Part shown: positions 823 through 12,251 of the stretch, in pieces
How positions within the stretch are numbered: the first letter of the stretch is position 1
Layout: the number at the start of each line of letters is the position of its first letter
Origin: a virus
DNA: 64,000 nt
Strand: one strand, 5' to 3'
Virus record (IMG/VR): IMGVR_UViG_3300018946_000033
Span: 1 to 64,000 of that record
Translations under genes and position numbers: made by a program
Notes under the pieces: model-generated
Database searches by the model: none
What the model was told of the DNA's origin: nothing
The model's input: only the letters and a program-made list of their open reading frames with translations

Positions 823-1179
823 GTGGCCAGGGTCCGCACCGACGACGACATCTACCGGGCACGGCTGCTCTACCTCGGCCCGCCCGGGTACACCCTGCCC
901 ATCCACCTCTCGTACGCGCAGTGGTTCGTGGGAGCGGCACTCGCCGCGGCGTTCGGCGGCGCGGCGTACCTCGTCATCGGCAACCCGTGGCTGACGTGGT
1001 GGGCGACGTGCGCGTCGGGCCTCGCCACAGCGCTGATCTTCAAGTACGTCAACCCCGACCGGCACGCGTGGCACGTCATCCGTACCGCGCTCACGGACTG
1101 GCGTCGCACCAAACCGCAGCCAACAGGTCAGATGCCTAGCTACAGCGTCGCGCACATTCGCATCGGAAGAGGCCAGTGA
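823..1179 (+). CDS. PrgI/VirB3-like T4SS membrane protein
   Basis: A 118-residue protein from a GTG start six bases after the upstream stop. An N-terminal cytosolic stretch precedes two hydrophobic helices (about residues 30-70), then a basic tail. This is the layout of PrgI/ConD proteins, which stand in for VirB3 and sit directly before VirB4 in Gram-positive conjugation operons. Its stop overlaps the VirB4 start (TGATG). Likely role: docking VirB4 at the membrane. Assignment rests on size, topology and gene order. Confidence 0.65.
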   Translation: MARVRTDDDIYRARLLYLGPPGYTLPIHLSYAQWFVGAALAAAFGGAAYLVIGNPWLTWWATCASGLATALIFKYVNPDRHAWHVIRTALTDWRRTKPQPTGQMPSYSVAHIRIGRGQ

Positions 1180-3758
1180 TGACTCCGTTCACGTTTGCTC
1201 CCGCTCGGGCGGCGACCGAACCGCTCGCCGTGCGCGCCGTCGGCCGCGTCGCCTCGCTCACCCCGAAGCGCCGCAACGCAAAGACCCCAAAGCCCACCGT
1301 CGACCTGCGGCTACGCGAAGTGGCCGGACACCTCACCTACACCGGTGCCACCGTCACCGCCTGGTACGCAGTGCCCGAGCAGCAGTGGGCGTTCCGCCCC
1401 GACGCCGAACGGGCCGCGCTTATGGGCCGTATCGCGAAGCAGTACGCGGGCCTCGCTGGTGCCCGGCTGCACCTGCGCCGCACCACCCGCCCATACCCGG
1501 TGTCCGCGTGGCTCACTGCCCACCACGGCAACACCGACCCGGCGGCGGCGAACACCGCCGAGTTCGCCGCGCACCTGTCCGCCGCCACGAAGCACCTCGA
1601 CACGGCGCAGTACGCCGAAGGCAGCACCCTTCTGGGCGTCGAGTTCGCGCGCCGCAACCTCGGCGACACCGCCGGGGAGTGGATGATGCGGCGCCTCCGC
1701 GGGGGCGGCGTCGCCCGATCCGAGCAGCAGCGCCTCACCGAACGGGTCCACCAGTACGACACGCTCCTCGCTGCGCCAGGCATGGCCGCCCGGCCGGCCA
1801 CCCCCACCGAGTTGTCGTGGCTGCTGTACCGCTCCGTCGGCCTCGGCCTGGCCCCCCTCGACGCGCAGATCACCACCCTCGGCCCCGACGACATCATGGC
1901 ACTCACCGAGCGGGTCCTGCGGTTCCGCACCAGCTATGGCGCCACCACCCGCCTCGTTGATCGGCTCACCGGGCAGGAGTCGCACGTCGCGGTCCTCACC
2001 GTCGGGCGGATGGAACCCCTCGACATTCCCGAAGTTCACCAGCCGTGGCTACACCTCGCCGACGAACTGACCTTCCCCGTCGAGGTGTCGTCCCGCGTCG
2101 AGGTCGTCACGTCGTCGAAGTCGCTGGAGCAGCGCCTGCGGATCATCCGGTCGCAGCAGAAGGACTACGCCGAGCACGGCCTGGACTCCCCGCCGGAGCT
2201 TGAACGACTCGCTGCCCGCGCGCTGGACGTCACCGACCAGGTCTCCACCGGGCTCGTCGAGGACGCGGCCCGCGCCCACGGCTGGCACCGCCTCGCCGTG
2301 TCGGGTGCCACCGAAGCAGAGGTGCTCGAACGCGTTGGGAAACTCCGCGCCCACTACAGCGAAAACGCCCGCATCGATCTGCACCACCCGAAAGACCAGG
2401 ACAGGCTGTGCGCCGAGTTCATCCCGGGCGAGCCGACCGCGAACACCGGCTACCTGCGGCGCATGCCCGTCGCCCTGCTCGCAGCGGCCGTTCCGCAGGC
2501 GGCGACCACCGTGGGTGACCGCCGCGGGGACCTCCTCGGCTACACCGCCGGCACGGGGCGTCGCCCGGTCATGTGGGACCCGCATTACGCCATGGAGGTT
2601 TCTGGGCGATCTGGCCTCGCAGTGCTGGTGTCCGACCCTGGCGGCGGGAAGTCCACGCTGCTCGGCGCGACGGGCTACCTCGCCGCCCTGCGTGGTGTGC
2701 AGACCACCATCCTCGACCCGTCCGGCCCCTTGGCGCGGCTGGCGGAACTGCCGTCCATGGCGGGCAAGGCCCGCGTCTTGAACTTGGCCGGGTCGAAACC
2801 CGGCACGCTTGCGCCGTTCGCGCTGATCCCGACACCCCGACGCGGCGACTACCCGTTCGGCGCGCAGGGCGACCTCGACTTCGAAGAGGCCGTCGCCGAG
2901 GCGAAGGCCGAACGGAAGATGCTCGTCCTGGACCTGTGTCGCATGCTGCTGCCGCCGTCGACCGCAGCACTGGCCACCACGGAGACGGTGCTCCGCGACG
3001 CGATCCGCAAGCTGCCGGCCGAGGAGACCACCACGCTCGACGATCTCGTCAAGGTGCTCCTCGACGGCGGCGACACCGCCCATGACGTGGCGAACCTGCT
3101 CCTCGACGCGGCCGAGATGCCGCGGGCGCGGCTGTTCTTCGGCTCACCGCCGAGCGACGTCGTGGACACCACCGCCCCGCTGACCATCATCACCATGGCC
3201 GGGTTGCACCTGCCCGACCTGTCTGTCGACCGGGCGTACTGGTCGGTGGAGGAGTCGCTGGCCGTGCCGATGCTGCACACCGCGCACCGGCTGGCGGTGC
3301 GCCGTTGCTACGGCGGGGAGATGGGGCAGCGGAAGTTCGTCGGACTGGACGAGGCGCACTTCCTCGAGGGGTGGGGTTCGGGCCGGTCGTTCCTGCGCCG
3401 GCTTGCCCGCGACTCCCGGAAGTGGAACCTCGCCGCGTTGGTGGCCTCGCAGAACCCGAAGGACATCCTGGGCTTGGACGTGCAGAACCTCGTGTCCAGT
3501 GTGTTTGTCGGCCGGATCTCCGAGGACTCCGAGATCGGGGCGGAGGCGCTTCGGCTGCTCCGCATCCCGTGCGATGTCGGCTACGAAGCCACCCTCGCCG
3601 GCCTGTCCAGCGGCGACGAGCACGCTGCCGCCCGACTGGGCTTCCGCGAATTCGTGATGCGCGACGTGGGCGGGCGGGTGCAGAAGATCCGGGTCGACGT
3701 GTCGTACGTGCCGGAGCTGCTCAGGTACCTGAACACCACGCCGGGCGGTGCCCGATGA
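1179..3758 (+). CDS. VirB4-family conjugation ATPase
   Basis: An 859-residue ATPase expected to energise the conjugation channel at the inner face of the membrane. It has a long N-terminal adaptor region (1-470), a Walker A motif (DPGGGKST near residue 487) and a DEAH Walker B (near 723), followed by a SQNPKD/Q-loop-like segment typical of VirB4/TraC C-terminal domains. Length fits ConE/VirB4. I prefer the ATG at 1179, which overlaps the upstream stop, to the adjacent GTG at 1176. It is the anchor for calling the left region a T4SS. Confidence 0.92.
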   Translation: MTPFTFAPARAATEPLAVRAVGRVASLTPKRRNAKTPKPTVDLRLREVAGHLTYTGATVTAWYAVPEQQWAFRPDAERAALMGRIAKQYAGLAGARLHLRRTTRPYPVSAWLTAHHGNTDPAAANTAEFAAHLSAATKHLDTAQYAEGSTLLGVEFARRNLGDTAGEWMMRRLRGGGVARSEQQRLTERVHQYDTLLAAPGMAARPATPTELSWLLYRSVGLGLAPLDAQITTLGPDDIMALTERVLRFRTSYGATTRLVDRLTGQESHVAVLTVGRMEPLDIPEVHQPWLHLADELTFPVEVSSRVEVVTSSKSLEQRLRIIRSQQKDYAEHGLDSPPELERLAARALDVTDQVSTGLVEDAARAHGWHRLAVSGATEAEVLERVGKLRAHYSENARIDLHHPKDQDRLCAEFIPGEPTANTGYLRRMPVALLAAAVPQAATTVGDRRGDLLGYTAGTGRRPVMWDPHYAMEVSGRSGLAVLVSDPGGGKSTLLGATGYLAALRGVQTTILDPSGPLARLAELPSMAGKARVLNLAGSKPGTLAPFALIPTPRRGDYPFGAQGDLDFEEAVAEAKAERKMLVLDLCRMLLPPSTAALATTETVLRDAIRKLPAEETTTLDDLVKVLLDGGDTAHDVANLLLDAAEMPRARLFFGSPPSDVVDTTAPLTIITMAGLHLPDLSVDRAYWSVEESLAVPMLHTAHRLAVRRCYGGEMGQRKFVGLDEAHFLEGWGSGRSFLRRLARDSRKWNLAALVASQNPKDILGLDVQNLVSSVFVGRISEDSEIGAEALRLLRIPCDVGYEATLAGLSSGDEHAAARLGFREFVMRDVGGRVQKIRVDVSYVPELLRYLNTTPGGAR

Positions 3759-6057: not shown

Positions 6058-7229
6058 AGCGGGCACGGGTGATCGCCCTCGCCGTGTGCCTGACCGGCTC
6101 AGCAACCCTGCTGTGCGTCGGCGGGACAGCCACCGTGTCGCTGATGTCAGCGTTCGGGGTTGTGCCCCCGGCGGCGCAGGCCGCGGGCTGCGGCGCGCCG
6201 GAACCGGTCGTGTCCGCGCCGGCGCCGGCGTCCCCGGTGAAGGGCTTCACCGACGCGCAGGTCCGCAACGCGACCGCCATCGTCCAGGCCGGTCAGTCCA
6301 TGGGCGTCCCGCCCCGCGGGTGGGTGGTGGCGGTGGCCACCGCCATGCAGGAGTCGACGTTGAAGAACTACGCCAACGACAACGCGGCATATCCGGAGGT
6401 CAGGCGCCTCAGCCTGGCGATCCCGCACGAGGCGGTCGGGCACGACCACGACTCGGTCGGACTGTTCCAGCAGCGCCCGGTAGAAGGCGACGGCGGCTGG
6501 GGCACCGTGAGCGAGCTGATGACGCCCTCCGTCAGCGCGAAGAAGTTCTTCGACGCGCTGCTCAAGGTCTCGAACTGGCAGGGGCTGCCCGTGACGTTGG
6601 CCGCGCAGAGGGTCCAGCGGTCCGCCTTCCCGGGCGCCTACGCCAAGCACGAATCAGCCGCGGCGGCTCTGGTCGGTGCGATCACGGGCGGGGCGGACAA
6701 GGTCGCCGCCGCGGCACCGGTGGCCGGCGTGTGCGCCGAGCCGGACGTGGTGACCGCCGGCGGCTGGGTCCGCCCGGTGGTTGCGAAGCCCGGCTCCGGG
6801 TTCCGCACCGCGAGCCGCCCCACCCATCAGGGCGTGGACCTCATGGTCAGCCGCAGCACCCCGATCAAGGCGGCCAGCGCCGGTTCGGTGATCCGCATGC
6901 GGTGCAACGCCGTGCATGCCGGTTCGGGTGGCGAGTGGGGCTGCGACCGCGACGGCCATCCCACGCTGGTCCGCGGCTGCGGCTGGTACGTAGACATCGC
7001 CCACGCCGACAACATCGTGACCCGCTACTGCCACATGGTCCGCCAGCCCGACGTGAACGTCGGCCAGAAGGTCGCGGCCGGGCAGCAGATCGGCTTGGCC
7101 GGCACGTCGGGCCACTCGAGCGGGGTGCACCTGCACTTCGAGGTTCACCTCCGCGGCGACACCTCCAGCGCGGGCGCGGTTGACCCGGTCCAGTTCATGC
7201 GCGACCACGGGGCGGCACTCGGTGGCTGA
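6054..7229 (+). CDS. Secreted two-domain peptidoglycan hydrolase (lytic transglycosylase plus M23 endopeptidase)
   Basis: A 391-residue exported enzyme that should open the cell wall for the transfer channel (VirB1/CwlT role). A signal helix (7-35) is followed by a lysozyme-like domain (about 64-210) with catalytic-type Glu100 in AMQES and the SVGLFQQRP segment. A C-terminal M23 metallopeptidase domain (about 240-375) carries His258 and Asp262 (HxxxD) and His359-x-His361 (HLHFE). Paired hydrolases of this kind mark Gram-positive T4SS operons. ATG overlaps the upstream stop. Confidence 0.9.
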   Translation: MKRARVIALAVCLTGSATLLCVGGTATVSLMSAFGVVPPAAQAAGCGAPEPVVSAPAPASPVKGFTDAQVRNATAIVQAGQSMGVPPRGWVVAVATAMQESTLKNYANDNAAYPEVRRLSLAIPHEAVGHDHDSVGLFQQRPVEGDGGWGTVSELMTPSVSAKKFFDALLKVSNWQGLPVTLAAQRVQRSAFPGAYAKHESAAAALVGAITGGADKVAAAAPVAGVCAEPDVVTAGGWVRPVVAKPGSGFRTASRPTHQGVDLMVSRSTPIKAASAGSVIRMRCNAVHAGSGGEWGCDRDGHPTLVRGCGWYVDIAHADNIVTRYCHMVRQPDVNVGQKVAAGQQIGLAGTSGHSSGVHLHFEVHLRGDTSSAGAVDPVQFMRDHGAALGG

Positions 7230-8301
7230 CAACCAGGCGCCGAGGCGCTTCACCTCAGACGACGTCGAGAACGCCGTCAACATCGTCATCGTGCTCGCGG
7301 TCGCTGTGGCGAGCCTCGCGTCGGCGTTCACGCACATGCACGACTGGACCATGCGGGAAATGCCGGCCGGCACCGAGGGATGGTTCGGCTGGTCCAACGC
7401 GATGATCCCCGAACTGCTGGCACTGGCTGGGCTGCTGTCGCTGCGTCGGCGAATGAAGTACCGGGCGAAATACCGGATGGCCGCAGCGGTGACGCTGGGC
7501 GGTGCGGTGTTGTCCCTCGCCGCCCAGCTCGCCGCGGTCGGTTCCGGGGCGAGCGTGTCGGCGAAGTTCCTCGCGGCGCTGCCGGCGTTGGCGGTGCTGG
7601 CGCTGATCAAGATGGTGACGTCGGACCTCGACCTCGGCCGGAAGATGTCGAACGCCAAGGCTGAGGCCGCCGCGGAGGACGCTCGGCGGCGCGCGGAGCA
7701 GGCGGCAATTGTGGCCCAGGCGGAGGCGGAAATTGCCGCCGCTGAGGCGGCAAAGGAAGCGGCAACGGCGCAGGTCGGAGCGGCAAACGCCGAACGCGAC
7801 GAAGCGGCAGAGCGGGCGGCAAACGCGCTGGCCGAGGTGGCGGAGTTGCGCCTGCTGCTGGAGGAGCGCGCGGCGACTCTTGAGGAAGCCGAGGCGGCAA
7901 TCTCGGAGCGGCAAACCGCTCTTGACCTGCGGGCCGACGAACTCCGCACCGCCAAGGAGGCACTCGCCGAGGCGGAAATGCGGGAGGAAATCCGGGCGCG
8001 CGTTGAAGCGGAAGCCGCTGGCAGCCAGCGCATCGCCAACCGGAAATCCGCACCGGCAAAGAGGGCGCCCCGCACGTCGGAGCTCCCCGCCAACCTGCCG
8101 CTTGTCGAGGGCGTGAAGCGGGAAACGGTGGCCGCCGTACTGGCGGCAATCGAGGCGAACCCGGCGGCGACGCAGGCGGCAATTGCCGCCTCGACTCGGC
8201 TGTCCGAGCGGACCATCCGCACGGTCATCAAGGCGGCAACTTTGCCGGCGCAGACCAACGGCCACGACCACAACCTGACCCCCACTGGAGCCACCCCATG
8301 A
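7222..8301 (+). CDS. SpdB/DUF2637-like membrane protein with long coiled coil and C-terminal HTH
   Basis: A 359-residue protein from a GTG overlapping the end of the hydrolase gene. About four helices (22-138) resemble DUF2637 spread proteins of actinomycete conjugative plasmids, with SAFTHMH and a PELLALAG segment. A highly charged Ala-rich coiled coil (about 145-275) and a short winged-helix-like domain (about 295-355, RLSERTIRTVIKA) follow. The coiled-coil DNA holds an exceptional cluster of GCGGCAA motifs (separate entry). Membrane tethering plus a DNA-binding end suggests it links element DNA to the transfer apparatus. Confidence 0.75.
   Translation: MADNQAPRRFTSDDVENAVNIVIVLAVAVASLASAFTHMHDWTMREMPAGTEGWFGWSNAMIPELLALAGLLSLRRRMKYRAKYRMAAAVTLGGAVLSLAAQLAAVGSGASVSAKFLAALPALAVLALIKMVTSDLDLGRKMSNAKAEAAAEDARRRAEQAAIVAQAEAEIAAAEAAKEAATAQVGAANAERDEAAERAANALAEVAELRLLLEERAATLEEAEAAISERQTALDLRADELRTAKEALAEAEMREEIRARVEAEAAGSQRIANRKSAPAKRAPRTSELPANLPLVEGVKRETVAAVLAAIEANPAATQAAIAASTRLSERTIRTVIKAATLPAQTNGHDHNLTPTGATP
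7702..8239 (+). repeat. Twelve-copy GCGGCAA motif cluster inside the spdB-like gene
   Basis: Exact GCGGCAA occurs at 7702, 7747, 7759, 7780, 7816, 7894, 7908, 8143, 8176 and 8233 on plus, and at 7733-7739 and 8183-8189 on minus. Two copies meet as the 16-bp palindrome GGCGGCAATTGCCGCC (8175-8190). Most plus copies encode Ala-Ala with the otherwise disfavoured GCA codon, but the copy at 7908 is in another frame (Arg-Gln) and two are inverted. This is unexpected from protein constraint alone. Candidate cis-acting transfer or packaging locus. Confidence 0.7.
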
Positions 8302-8501
8302 CCCACGCATTCGCCCTCGACGTGTTCGACGGCCCGGACTTGACGCTCGTCGCGCCCATCCGCGCGGAGGACGTGTCGGCCGCTAAGGCAGCCGCGCAGC
8401 TCCTCATCAACGGCCTGCCGAACACCGCCGGTCACCTGTACGAAGCACCCACCAATGCGAGGCCGGTGTACGTCGGCTTCGTCCAGCCCACCCAGCCCTG
8501 A
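8298..8501 (+). CDS. Small hypothetical protein in transfer operon
   Basis: 67 residues, soluble, ATG overlapping the spdB-like stop (ATGA). No recognised domain. Short proteins in this position are common in actinomycete transfer (spd) operons, but sequence similarity cannot be judged here. Confidence 0.55.
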   Translation: MTHAFALDVFDGPDLTLVAPIRAEDVSAAKAAAQLLINGLPNTAGHLYEAPTNARPVYVGFVQPTQP

Positions 8502-8528
8502 CCCCCGACGTCCACGGAAGGACACCGC

Positions 8529-8744
8529 ATGAGCCCCGACCGTCCCGACCACATCACTGAACCGGCCACCGCGATGCAGGCCCACGTCCTGACGGACGGG
8601 TCCTTGGCCCTCGGCATCACCACGAAGAGCGTCCGCCTCGACGTGACGCTCACCCCCGAGATGACCAGCCAACTCACCGACCGACTCGTGTACGACACCG
8701 CCCACGTCAAGCCCGCGCCCGCGCCGCTCCAGCGCGCGGCATAG
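8529..8744 (+). CDS. Small hypothetical protein
   Basis: 71 residues with a ribosome site (GGAAGG) eight bases before ATG. Soluble, no TM helix, no recognised motif. Lies between the spdB-like gene and another membrane protein in the same plus-strand operon. Confidence 0.6.
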   Translation: MSPDRPDHITEPATAMQAHVLTDGSLALGITTKSVRLDVTLTPEMTSQLTDRLVYDTAHVKPAPAPLQRAA

Positions 8745-8769
8745 CACTCCAACCGAAGGAGAAGGAACC

Positions 8770-9255
8770 ATGTCTGGAACACCCCCCGCAGAGGGCGAAG
8801 CCAAGGTCGACGGTGCGCTGACCTGGGTTTCCCTTGGTCTCGGATTCATCGGCGGATGGGCCGCCATCGCCACCTGGATCGGCGCGTTCGTCGGAGGCGC
8901 AGTTGGGATGCTCCCCGACTGGGCGCCACCCCTGCTGTTCGTGGTCGGCACGGCCATCATCGTGATCGACGTCTTGCGTGACGGCATCCCGAACCGGCCC
9001 GCCGTGTATTTCATGATCCTGTTGCCGTCGATCGGCCTCGGAGTGAACGGCAAACTCTCGGATCAGCTCGACAAGTGGGGCGACAACATCAACCGGGTCA
9101 CGTCGGAGAAGGCCGGCGAGTGGCTCGGCGAGGGCTCCTTGACTGCGCTCGCCCTGATCGCCATCGCGTTGGCGGTCGTGGTCGCACAGAAGGCGATCAA
9201 GAAGACGTCGCTCAACCCGCTGGCGCAGCGCGCTGGGGCACGGGGTGGGCGATGA
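8770..9255 (+). CDS. Multi-spanning membrane protein, probable spread/transfer protein
   Basis: 161 residues preceded by a strong AAGGAGAAGG ribosome site. Three to four hydrophobic helices (about 17-45, 50-68, 77-90 and 122-142) flank a short amphipathic loop. Placement between the spdB-like gene and the FtsK-type translocase resembles the spd genes of Streptomyces conjugative plasmids, whose products help intramycelial spread. Family not recognised; role inferred from neighbourhood. Confidence 0.65.
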   Translation: MSGTPPAEGEAKVDGALTWVSLGLGFIGGWAAIATWIGAFVGGAVGMLPDWAPPLLFVVGTAIIVIDVLRDGIPNRPAVYFMILLPSIGLGVNGKLSDQLDKWGDNINRVTSEKAGEWLGEGSLTALALIAIALAVVVAQKAIKKTSLNPLAQRAGARGGR

Positions 9256-9989: not shown

Positions 9990-12251
9990 GTGACTCAGCC
10001 CGACGCGTCGAACTGGCCCAAGGCGCCAGCCGCGCCCCCGCGCCCAGAGAAGCCTCGGCCCCCGACGCTGATGCAGTGGGCGACCGCGCCCATGCGCCGC
10101 GCAGCCGACGACGCCAAGGCGAAGGCCAAGGCGGCGGCGAAGGCAAAGGCCAGGAGCGTCGGGCACGCGGCATCAATCAAGGCCCGTCACGCGTCGGCCG
10201 AGACTCGCACGCACCGCCCATCCGCTGTGGTCGCCGCCGTGCTGTTCGTGTTCGGGCTGAACCTGGCAGGCAACAACCGGCTCGGCGCCGTCGCTCTCGG
10301 CATCCTGGTCGTGGCGCTCGCCGCGCCGGCTGCGTACTGCGCCACGTACCTGCGTCTCCGCAGCCAGGCCATCCGCAACGGCAAGGTCGAAGAGTTCGCG
10401 GTCCGCAAGGACGGCAAGCGGGCGCGGGACACGGCCCGCCAGGTCGCCGCCGCCGCGGTGGCGTTCGGCGGGTGGACCTTCGTCGCCGGTGTCGTTGGCG
10501 TCAACCCCGGCTCGGTGCTCGGATCGGCCGGCGCGTTGTTCGTCGTCCTGCTCGGGTTCGCCCTCGCCGGCATCGTGACCCGCCGCCACTGGGCGCACCT
10601 CTCAGAAGAGCGGGACCGGCACCGCACCAACGACCGCAAACCCACTGAGGTTGAGCTGCCGGTTGCCGAGGTTGAGCCTGCCCCCGTGCGAGTGAAGCGC
10701 GACGAGCACTGCACCTACCAGCTCCCATCCATCGACATGCTCGGCGCCGGGGAACCCCCGAAGACCCGCAGCAAAGCCAACGACGTCGTCATTGCCGCGC
10801 TTCGTGGCGTGTTCGACGAGTTCAAGGTCGACGCCGACGTCACCGGCTTCACCCGTGGACCCACCCTCACTCGATACGAGGTGGAGGTCGGGCGAGGCGT
10901 CAAGGTCGAACGGGTGACAAAGCTCGCCCGCAACATTGCCTACGCAGTAAAGAGCGGCGACGTCCGCATCCTCGACCCGATCCCGGGGAAGAGTGCCATC
11001 GGCATAGAGATCCCCAACATCGACAGAGAGAACGTTGCGCTCGGTGATGTGCTGCGGTCCGCCGCCGCCCAGGCGGACCACCACCCGCTCCTCGTCGGCC
11101 TCGGCAAGGACATCGAGGGCGGGTACGTCGTGGCAAACCTGGCCAAGGCGCCGCACATCCTGATCGCCGGCGCGACCGGTGCGGGCAAGTCGAGCTGCCT
11201 CAACACGCTGCTCTGCTCGATCCTGACCCGGGCCACACCGGACGAGGTGCGGCTGATCCTCGTCGACACGAAGCGCGTCGAGTTCACCGGGTACGAGGGC
11301 ATCCCGCACCTCATCACCCCGATCGTCACCAACCCGAAGAGGGCCGCCGACGCCCTCGACTGGGTTGTCCGCGAGATGGACATGCGCTACGACGACATGG
11401 CCGCAGCCGGCGTCCGCAACATCGACGAGTACAACGCGAAGGTCCGCGCCGGGCAGATCAAGGCGCCCCTCGGCAGTGACAGGGTTATCCGCCCGTACCC
11501 GTACCTGCTCGTTGTGGTTGACGAACTGGCCGACCTGATGATGGTCGCGCCCCGCGACGTCGAGGACTCAGTGGTTCGCATCACGCAGCTCTCGCGGGCG
11601 TCCGGCATCCACTTGGTGCTGGCCACCCAGCGGCCCTCTGTGGACGTGGTCACCGGACTGATCAAGGCGAACGTGCCGTCCCGGTTGGCGTTTGCCACGT
11701 CGTCGCTGACTGACTCGCGGGTCATCCTGGACCAGCCGGGCGCCGAGAAGTTGATCGGCAAGGGCGACGCCCTGTTCCTGCCGATGGGCGCGTCGAAGCC
11801 GACCCGCGTTCAGGGAGCCTGGGTGGACGCGAAGGAGATCGCGGACGTCGTGAAGCTCTGCAAGGAGCAGCGTGAGCCGGAGTTCGTCCCGGACGTTGTG
11901 GTGCCGCTGACCGGCCCGGCTGCGGTCCCGGTTCATGTTCAGGTTCCCCCGGCTCCGCGGCCGGGCACGTCCGGCGTGACTACCGCCGATGTGTTGCTGG
12001 CGGTAGTAGCGCGCCGTCCGGGTTGCTCGTCGGCGGACATTGCGGCGCACCGGGTGTGGGCTGAGCACGGTGGTGTTCCGCACCAGACGACGTTGTCCAC
12101 GCGAGTGCCGGAGCAGCTCGCCGACGCAGGCCTGCTGACCCGGGACAAGCGGGGTGGCGCGTGGGTGAACTACCGCCTCACGCCGAAGGGCGAGGCACGC
12201 GCCGAGATTGTGGTCCCGTCGGTGTTCCCGCCGGAGGACGTGGCGGCCTGA
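9990..12251 (+). CDS. FtsK/SpoIIIE-type DNA translocase (conjugative coupling protein candidate)
   Basis: A 753-residue hexameric-type DNA pump. An Arg/Lys-rich N-terminus precedes four TM helices (about 74-110 and 150-195). A chromosomal-FtsK-like alpha region (TYQLPS near 240) leads to the motor, with Walker [10 protein letters not shown] (about 393), [21 protein letters not shown] (Walker B) and [14 protein letters not shown] winged-helix gamma-like end (about 665-745, YRLTPKGEA) follows. GTG start with GAGGAC upstream. In Tn916/ICEBs1-type systems such a protein is the coupling protein; in AICEs it moves double-stranded DNA alone. Confidence 0.92.

Follow-up and report, generated by a model that had tools for sequence, protein, structure and literature searches.

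A GCGGCAA array within the codons of a predicted membrane-anchored DNA-binding protein of an actinobacterial mobile element

The 64,000-nucleotide stretch analysed here (the window; positions 1 to 64,000 of IMG/VR virus record IMGVR_UViG_3300018946_000033, which is 69.7 kb in full) carries twelve exact copies of the heptamer GCGGCAA between 7702 and 8239 (540 bases; ten on the plus strand and two on the minus strand), all within a single open reading frame (ORF) at 7222-8301 whose product is predicted to have a membrane domain, a coiled coil and a C-terminal helix-turn-helix (HTH). As judged from sequence comparison, this array is a feature selected at the level of the DNA. We consider it probable that the array is read by the HTH of the same membrane-anchored protein in whose gene it is written, and that the protein tethers the element near its FtsK-type translocase for segregation or transfer.

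Results

The GCGGCAA cluster exceeds what the encoded protein requires

The array falls into two parts, and the features of the array gene are as follows.

7222..8301, plus strand: array gene (ORF, GTG start at 7222), encoding a 359-residue protein with a membrane domain, a coiled coil and a C-terminal HTH
7255..7539, plus strand: codons of the predicted membrane domain (residues 12-106, from the model helices), with no GCGGCAA
7702..7914, plus strand: main part of the array, eight GCGGCAA in coiled-coil codons (7702+, 7733-, 7747+, 7759+, 7780+, 7816+, 7894+, 7908+)
7726..7739, no strand: imperfect inverted pair GCGGAAATTGCCGC, the second inverted GCGGCAA pair besides the 16-bp palindrome
8083..8235, plus strand: codons of the C-terminal HTH, the proposed reader of the array
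8143..8239, plus strand: second part of the array, four GCGGCAA in HTH codons (8143+, 8176+, 8183-, 8233+)
8175..8190, no strand: 16-bp palindrome GGCGGCAATTGCCGCC, read from the sequence as two inverted, abutting GCGGCAA copies

Of the twelve copies, nine read in frame as GCG-GCA-A; the copy at 7908 lies in a different frame, and the remaining two are inverted. A preliminary description of this DNA had listed the twelve copies with their strands and a perfect 16-bp palindrome, and had argued from the out-of-frame and inverted copies that protein constraint alone was insufficient; every copy and the palindrome were recovered where it had placed them, the frames were confirmed, and synonymous-codon shuffles of the array gene yielded a mean of only 1.2 GCGGCAA (maximum 7, with 0 of 5000 shuffles reaching 12). 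The cluster is therefore not explained by protein constraint. When 7-mers in 600-base windows were scanned against an order-3 Markov model, GCGGCAA formed the top cluster of the 64 kb (log10 p -17), with 23 copies found elsewhere in the window (expectation for the whole window about 17.5) and 37 in the full 69.7 kb record. Most one-mismatch variants occurred at about their expected count, with GCGGAAA and CCGGCAA present twice each against an expected 0.37.

Codon usage in the array gene was similarly local. GCA was chosen for alanine before A in 10 of 23 cases, compared with 35 of 518 in the other predicted genes (Fisher p 3e-6), and an alanine-rich tape-measure gene with 63 Ala-Ala pairs holds just two GCGGCAA in 5.3 kb, so the equal density in other alanine-rich genes that would have spoken for a by-product of composition was not observed. 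Codon context alone as the cause of the array was ruled out by the synonymous shuffles together with this comparison with other genes.

Predicted architecture of the array protein

A single-sequence AlphaFold2 model of the array protein places helices at residues 12-46, 54-77 and 82-106, a coiled coil at 114-274 and further helices at 300-312 and 314-340; the predicted local distance difference test score (pLDDT) exceeds 90 over most of the coil and is lower in the membrane part and the HTH. The membrane domain is predicted to be of a four-helix type, and shows 41-47% identity to proteins from Actinocatenispora and its relatives, in which the coil, this HTH and the motif are all lacking. The C-terminus matches HTH_24 with an E of 0.0078, under the curated cut-off, and archaeal transcription factor E was matched weakly (best E 0.008) by a profile built from four of the HTHs. 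Searches of Pfam returned no DUF2637 (PF10935) match up to an E of 1, searches of Pfam and NCBIfam no initiator domain or replication-initiator homology, a PDB search with the single-sequence fold no significant match, and a search of viral contigs with the array protein no match.

Among relatives, motif and HTH vary together

One of the genome searches for relatives used only the membrane part of the coiled-coil protein. An HTH homologous to that of the window, joined to an unrelated membrane domain, was found at seven Micromonosporaceae loci (numbered, like the other loci compared, with an L), namely three plasmids, of Micromonospora maris (pVMKU), Verrucosispora and Micromonospora sp., and four genomic loci; the HTH of the pVMKU protein WP_013713121.1 is 55% identical to that of the window over 51 residues, and no similarity was found between the window membrane domain and that of the plasmid genes. 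All seven loci carry 8-12 copies of GCGGAAA, one base from GCGGCAA, against 1.5-2.4 expected, with GCGGCAA itself nearly missing (one copy, in L269). GAA before A is far commoner in the array gene than in the other genes of the three plasmids (p <1e-7). At the eight loci linked to the window through the membrane domain alone (L001-L008), there were zero copies of GCGGCAA. The FtsK gamma domain is present in the Micromonosporaceae plasmids with GCGGAAA and absent from the window FtsK.

Selection on the DNA is also indicated by the way the copies are distributed. Within the Micromonospora group, linker identity falls to 53-58%, yet 8-12 copies are kept, of which only 3-8 share an aligned position. 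At two other loci the array continues into the non-coding gap before ftsK, with nine copies of the respective motif in the gap of L233, a Streptosporangium plasmid, and five in that of L015, oriented opposite to most of the in-gene copies, and for these two loci a purely translational explanation is therefore excluded.

A second set comprised 31 Streptomyces genes whose membrane domains are related to the one encoded by plasmid gene L229. Ten of the eleven genes with the L229 type of HTH carry 6-20 copies of CGTCAC (each p <=0.01 by synonymous shuffle), and CGTCAC density is much lower, mostly at background, in the twenty genes with other C-termini (Mann-Whitney p 4e-5). Across 29 genes, motif similarity was correlated with HTH similarity with a Mantel r of 0.81 (0.65 for representatives) and with membrane-domain similarity with an r of 0.55 (0.25 for representatives). 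As some membrane stretches were trimmed inexactly and the Streptomyces genes were all given a single motif, we treat the Mantel result as supportive, not decisive. Taken at the level of sequence, the motif in relatives varies as the HTH varies, and follows neither the membrane domain nor the gamma domain of FtsK.

Several observations weigh against reading the array as a site for the HTH of its own protein. The Micromonosporaceae copies are nearly all in frame; one Streptomyces gene with the L229 HTH type has no array; CGTCAC is somewhat in excess in L265, L250 and L260 despite their other C-termini; HTH and membrane domain are partly co-inherited, the latter also correlating with the motif, as above; and a strong in-gene cluster was present in only 5 of 60 randomly sampled DUF2637 genes, a family to which some of the array proteins described below belong. 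Enrichment of DUF2637 genes over other windows was modest (p 0.02-0.03 with thresholds of -7 and -8, but no significance with -6), and a stricter synonymous test, which is conservative where the motif itself sets linker composition, flagged none of the 60 at 1e-4. The array as a general property of all DUF2637 genes was accordingly rejected. Among control genes near the DUF2637 genes, strong 7-mer arrays were seen in L220 (4726-5928 in gene-oriented coordinates, CGTCGCC x12) and L196 (14-1114, GGAACGA x10).

Arrays near related FtsK genes and the translocase as a candidate reader

Downstream of the array gene lies the translocase gene of the element.

9990..12251, plus strand: FtsK-type DNA translocase with motor and alpha domains (FtsK_SpoIIIE, PF01580, 4e-66; FtsK_alpha, PF17854, 5e-25)

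The array is upstream of this gene at a distance of 1.75 kb, with ORFs between. No domain match to the FtsK gamma domain was obtained in the window FtsK, and inspection of its C-terminus showed a winged-helix-like domain of another kind there; relatives with a similar degree of identity nearly all have gamma. The FtsK of L020 resembles that of the window, being without a gamma domain and having a different end.

Twenty-six virus loci were collected with an FtsK at least 59% identical to that of the window over the aligned part. About a third of this sample (9 of 26) have a strong 7-mer cluster (p <1e-8), each of these nine having a cluster at 0.3-4.4 kb from ftsK; as the array-bearing loci were chosen by the cluster scan, per-gene significance is not independent of their selection. 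The examined clusters (L013 left out) occupy a gene, in some cases together with its flank, whose product combines a membrane domain with a low-complexity linker and an HTH-like end, and the L009, L014 and L021 proteins match DUF2637. The motifs differ from locus to locus (CGAACAC, CGAGACC, GAGTTCC, GGGTAAC, GGACCCC and others). In L026, about 60 copies of CCGAACA/CGAACAC stand in one ORF (7238-8860), flanking the membrane domain on both sides. The gamma domains of the related FtsK proteins are nearly invariant, and with motifs so different gamma is therefore unlikely to read them.

These data bear on a rival reading, close to the proposal of the preliminary description, in which the cluster is a clt-type site read by the FtsK/TraB-like translocase, as in Streptomyces plasmids, and the SpdB-like gene is its mere host. 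Known clt loci are arrays of short repeats near a tra gene and are bound by the translocase (PMC3583192, PMC4170104), the arrays of the window and its relatives lie in the region of ftsK at the distances given above, and the unusual, winged-helix-like C-terminus of the window FtsK could offer a reader. The clt repeat of pJV1 is CCGCACA[C/G][C/G] (PMC3583192), and plasmid pSROS01 (L238) has a CCGCACA cluster equal to it at about 2549-2755, in the non-coding gap before ftsK, which from its sequence is a probable clt locus. The DUF2637 gene of L238, however, holds a separate and different array, and a clt-like site and a self-coded array can therefore coexist. A translocase reader is further opposed by the near-invariance of gamma against differing motifs, and by a window FtsK without the gamma domain that is present in plasmids with a nearly identical motif. 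Thus the preliminary proposal of a DNA-level recognition array of the general clt kind near an FtsK-type gene, rather than a protein by-product, stands, but its FtsK reader is not supported, the motif following the HTH; a packaging role, which it had also allowed, found no support. We regard the clt-type reading as unlikely, and on sequence grounds the HTH of the same protein as a more likely reader of GCGGCAA than the FtsK translocase.

Genomic setting of the array gene

Upstream of the array gene are genes for an M23 peptidase and a VirB4-type ATPase, and the remaining window is a prophage with integrase, terminase, portal, tape-measure and primase/polymerase genes, the source being a virus record. 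DNA nearly identical to the window was found in no phage, and plasmid matches were limited to ftsK. The VirB4-like AAA_10 ATPase (1176-3758), which had no match among viral contigs, has a homologue about 60-65% identical in 293 of 301 sampled genomes of the Actinocatenispora family, usually in single copy, and a multi-helix gene and an M23 gene adjoin this homologue in the 20 loci read. The VirB4-like, multi-helix and M23 set is a conserved chromosomal locus resembling a type IV secretion system, and the window has such a set beside its prophage genes. These chromosomal loci were considered as a homologous context for the array and rejected, the three genes being kept and a homologue of the array gene not being detected; a moderate 7-mer cluster occurred in just 2 of the 20.

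Discussion

In the mechanism that we favour, the array gene would produce a membrane-anchored DNA-binding protein whose C-terminal HTH binds GCGGCAA sites lying within the coding sequence for its own linker and HTH. Such a protein would hold the DNA of the element at the membrane, close to the FtsK translocase, and this tether may serve segregation, cell-to-cell transfer and spreading, or both. Binding by the HTH, membrane location of the protein and its role in tethering, segregation or transfer are all inferred.

Three further readings were weighed. The repeats might be origin iterons within an initiator gene, as in lambda O, and it is true that they are irregular, include a palindrome and lie inside the gene of a DNA-binding protein, where they encode the stretch beside the DNA-binding domain; against this, the protein includes a membrane domain, nothing resembling an initiator domain was found in it, and the phage part of the window has a primase/polymerase gene of its own, making this reading very improbable. 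We hold it equally improbable that the array is an autoregulatory operator through which the HTH controls transcription of the tra-like operon, with no tethering. The sequence evidence for this is the same as for a tether, and binding of an HTH protein to its own gene is common in autoregulation. The copies are, however, deep in the gene and not at its start, operators usually need fewer sites than this array has, and it is not obvious why a regulator should need a membrane domain. An artefact of codon context or repeat expansion (alanine-rich heptads that locally favour GCA and GAA before A and are maintained by duplication, with no function as DNA) would account for copies that are mostly in frame and in a coiled coil, but is strongly disfavoured by the synonymous null, the other-frame and inverted copies, the absence of the GCA/GAA preference from other genes, the non-coding arrays of relatives and the link to HTH type.

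Beyond the window, we lean towards the existence of a widespread class, on actinobacterial plasmids, phages and integrated elements, of membrane-anchored DNA-binding proteins with a cognate array in the codons between membrane domain and HTH. Reader and site would then move as one cassette on HTH exchange, the motif would dictate part of the protein, and the pair would form a self-contained membrane tether resembling a centromere or transfer site. Spd-type and DUF2637-type membrane proteins occur on many actinobacterial mobile elements; if many of these carry their own array, their target DNA could be read from the genes, and roles in segregation, spreading and transfer could be tested by synonymous recoding. 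The array also offers a clear example of a protein linker shaped by selection on the DNA that encodes it. According to one study, what most proteins of such plasmids do at the molecular level is unknown (PMC4170104), and our search of the open-access literature for DUF2637 returned one incidental mention.

Comparison with known systems

The window resembles the clt/TRS systems of TraB/TraA translocases of Streptomyces plasmids in that short repeats are clustered, on an actinobacterial mobile element, in the neighbourhood of an FtsK-type gene, and differs from them in that its array sits in the codons of another gene, with a motif that tracks the HTH of that gene and not FtsK gamma. Among DUF2637 and SpdB-like membrane proteins, those of relatives L009, L014 and L021 share its layout of membrane domain, linker and HTH-like end, and their arrays are in or near the gene, although the window protein itself has no DUF2637 match. 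In phage lambda, the origin iterons are internal to the O initiator gene. Reader and site array are thus combined there in one gene, with the array encoding part of the protein, but O is a soluble initiator with no membrane domain, and its fold and role are unlike those of the window protein.

The SpdA2 protein of pIJ101 binds sps, CGTCACGTGACG, which is situated within the coding sequence for SpdA2 itself, and segregational stability falls when the protein or the site is lost (PMC4170104). This site is a palindrome of CGTCAC, the motif of the Streptomyces relatives described above, to which CGTCAC is restricted among the loci compared; the window motif is GCGGCAA and not CGTCACGTGACG. The described plasmids have few palindromic sites (two or one) where the window has an array of about twelve copies, and a membrane domain and coiled coil like those of the window protein do not figure in that description of SpdA2. 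In both systems, nevertheless, a recognition site would lie within the gene of a DNA-binding protein, since all twelve copies of the array are in the gene of the HTH protein that probably reads them.
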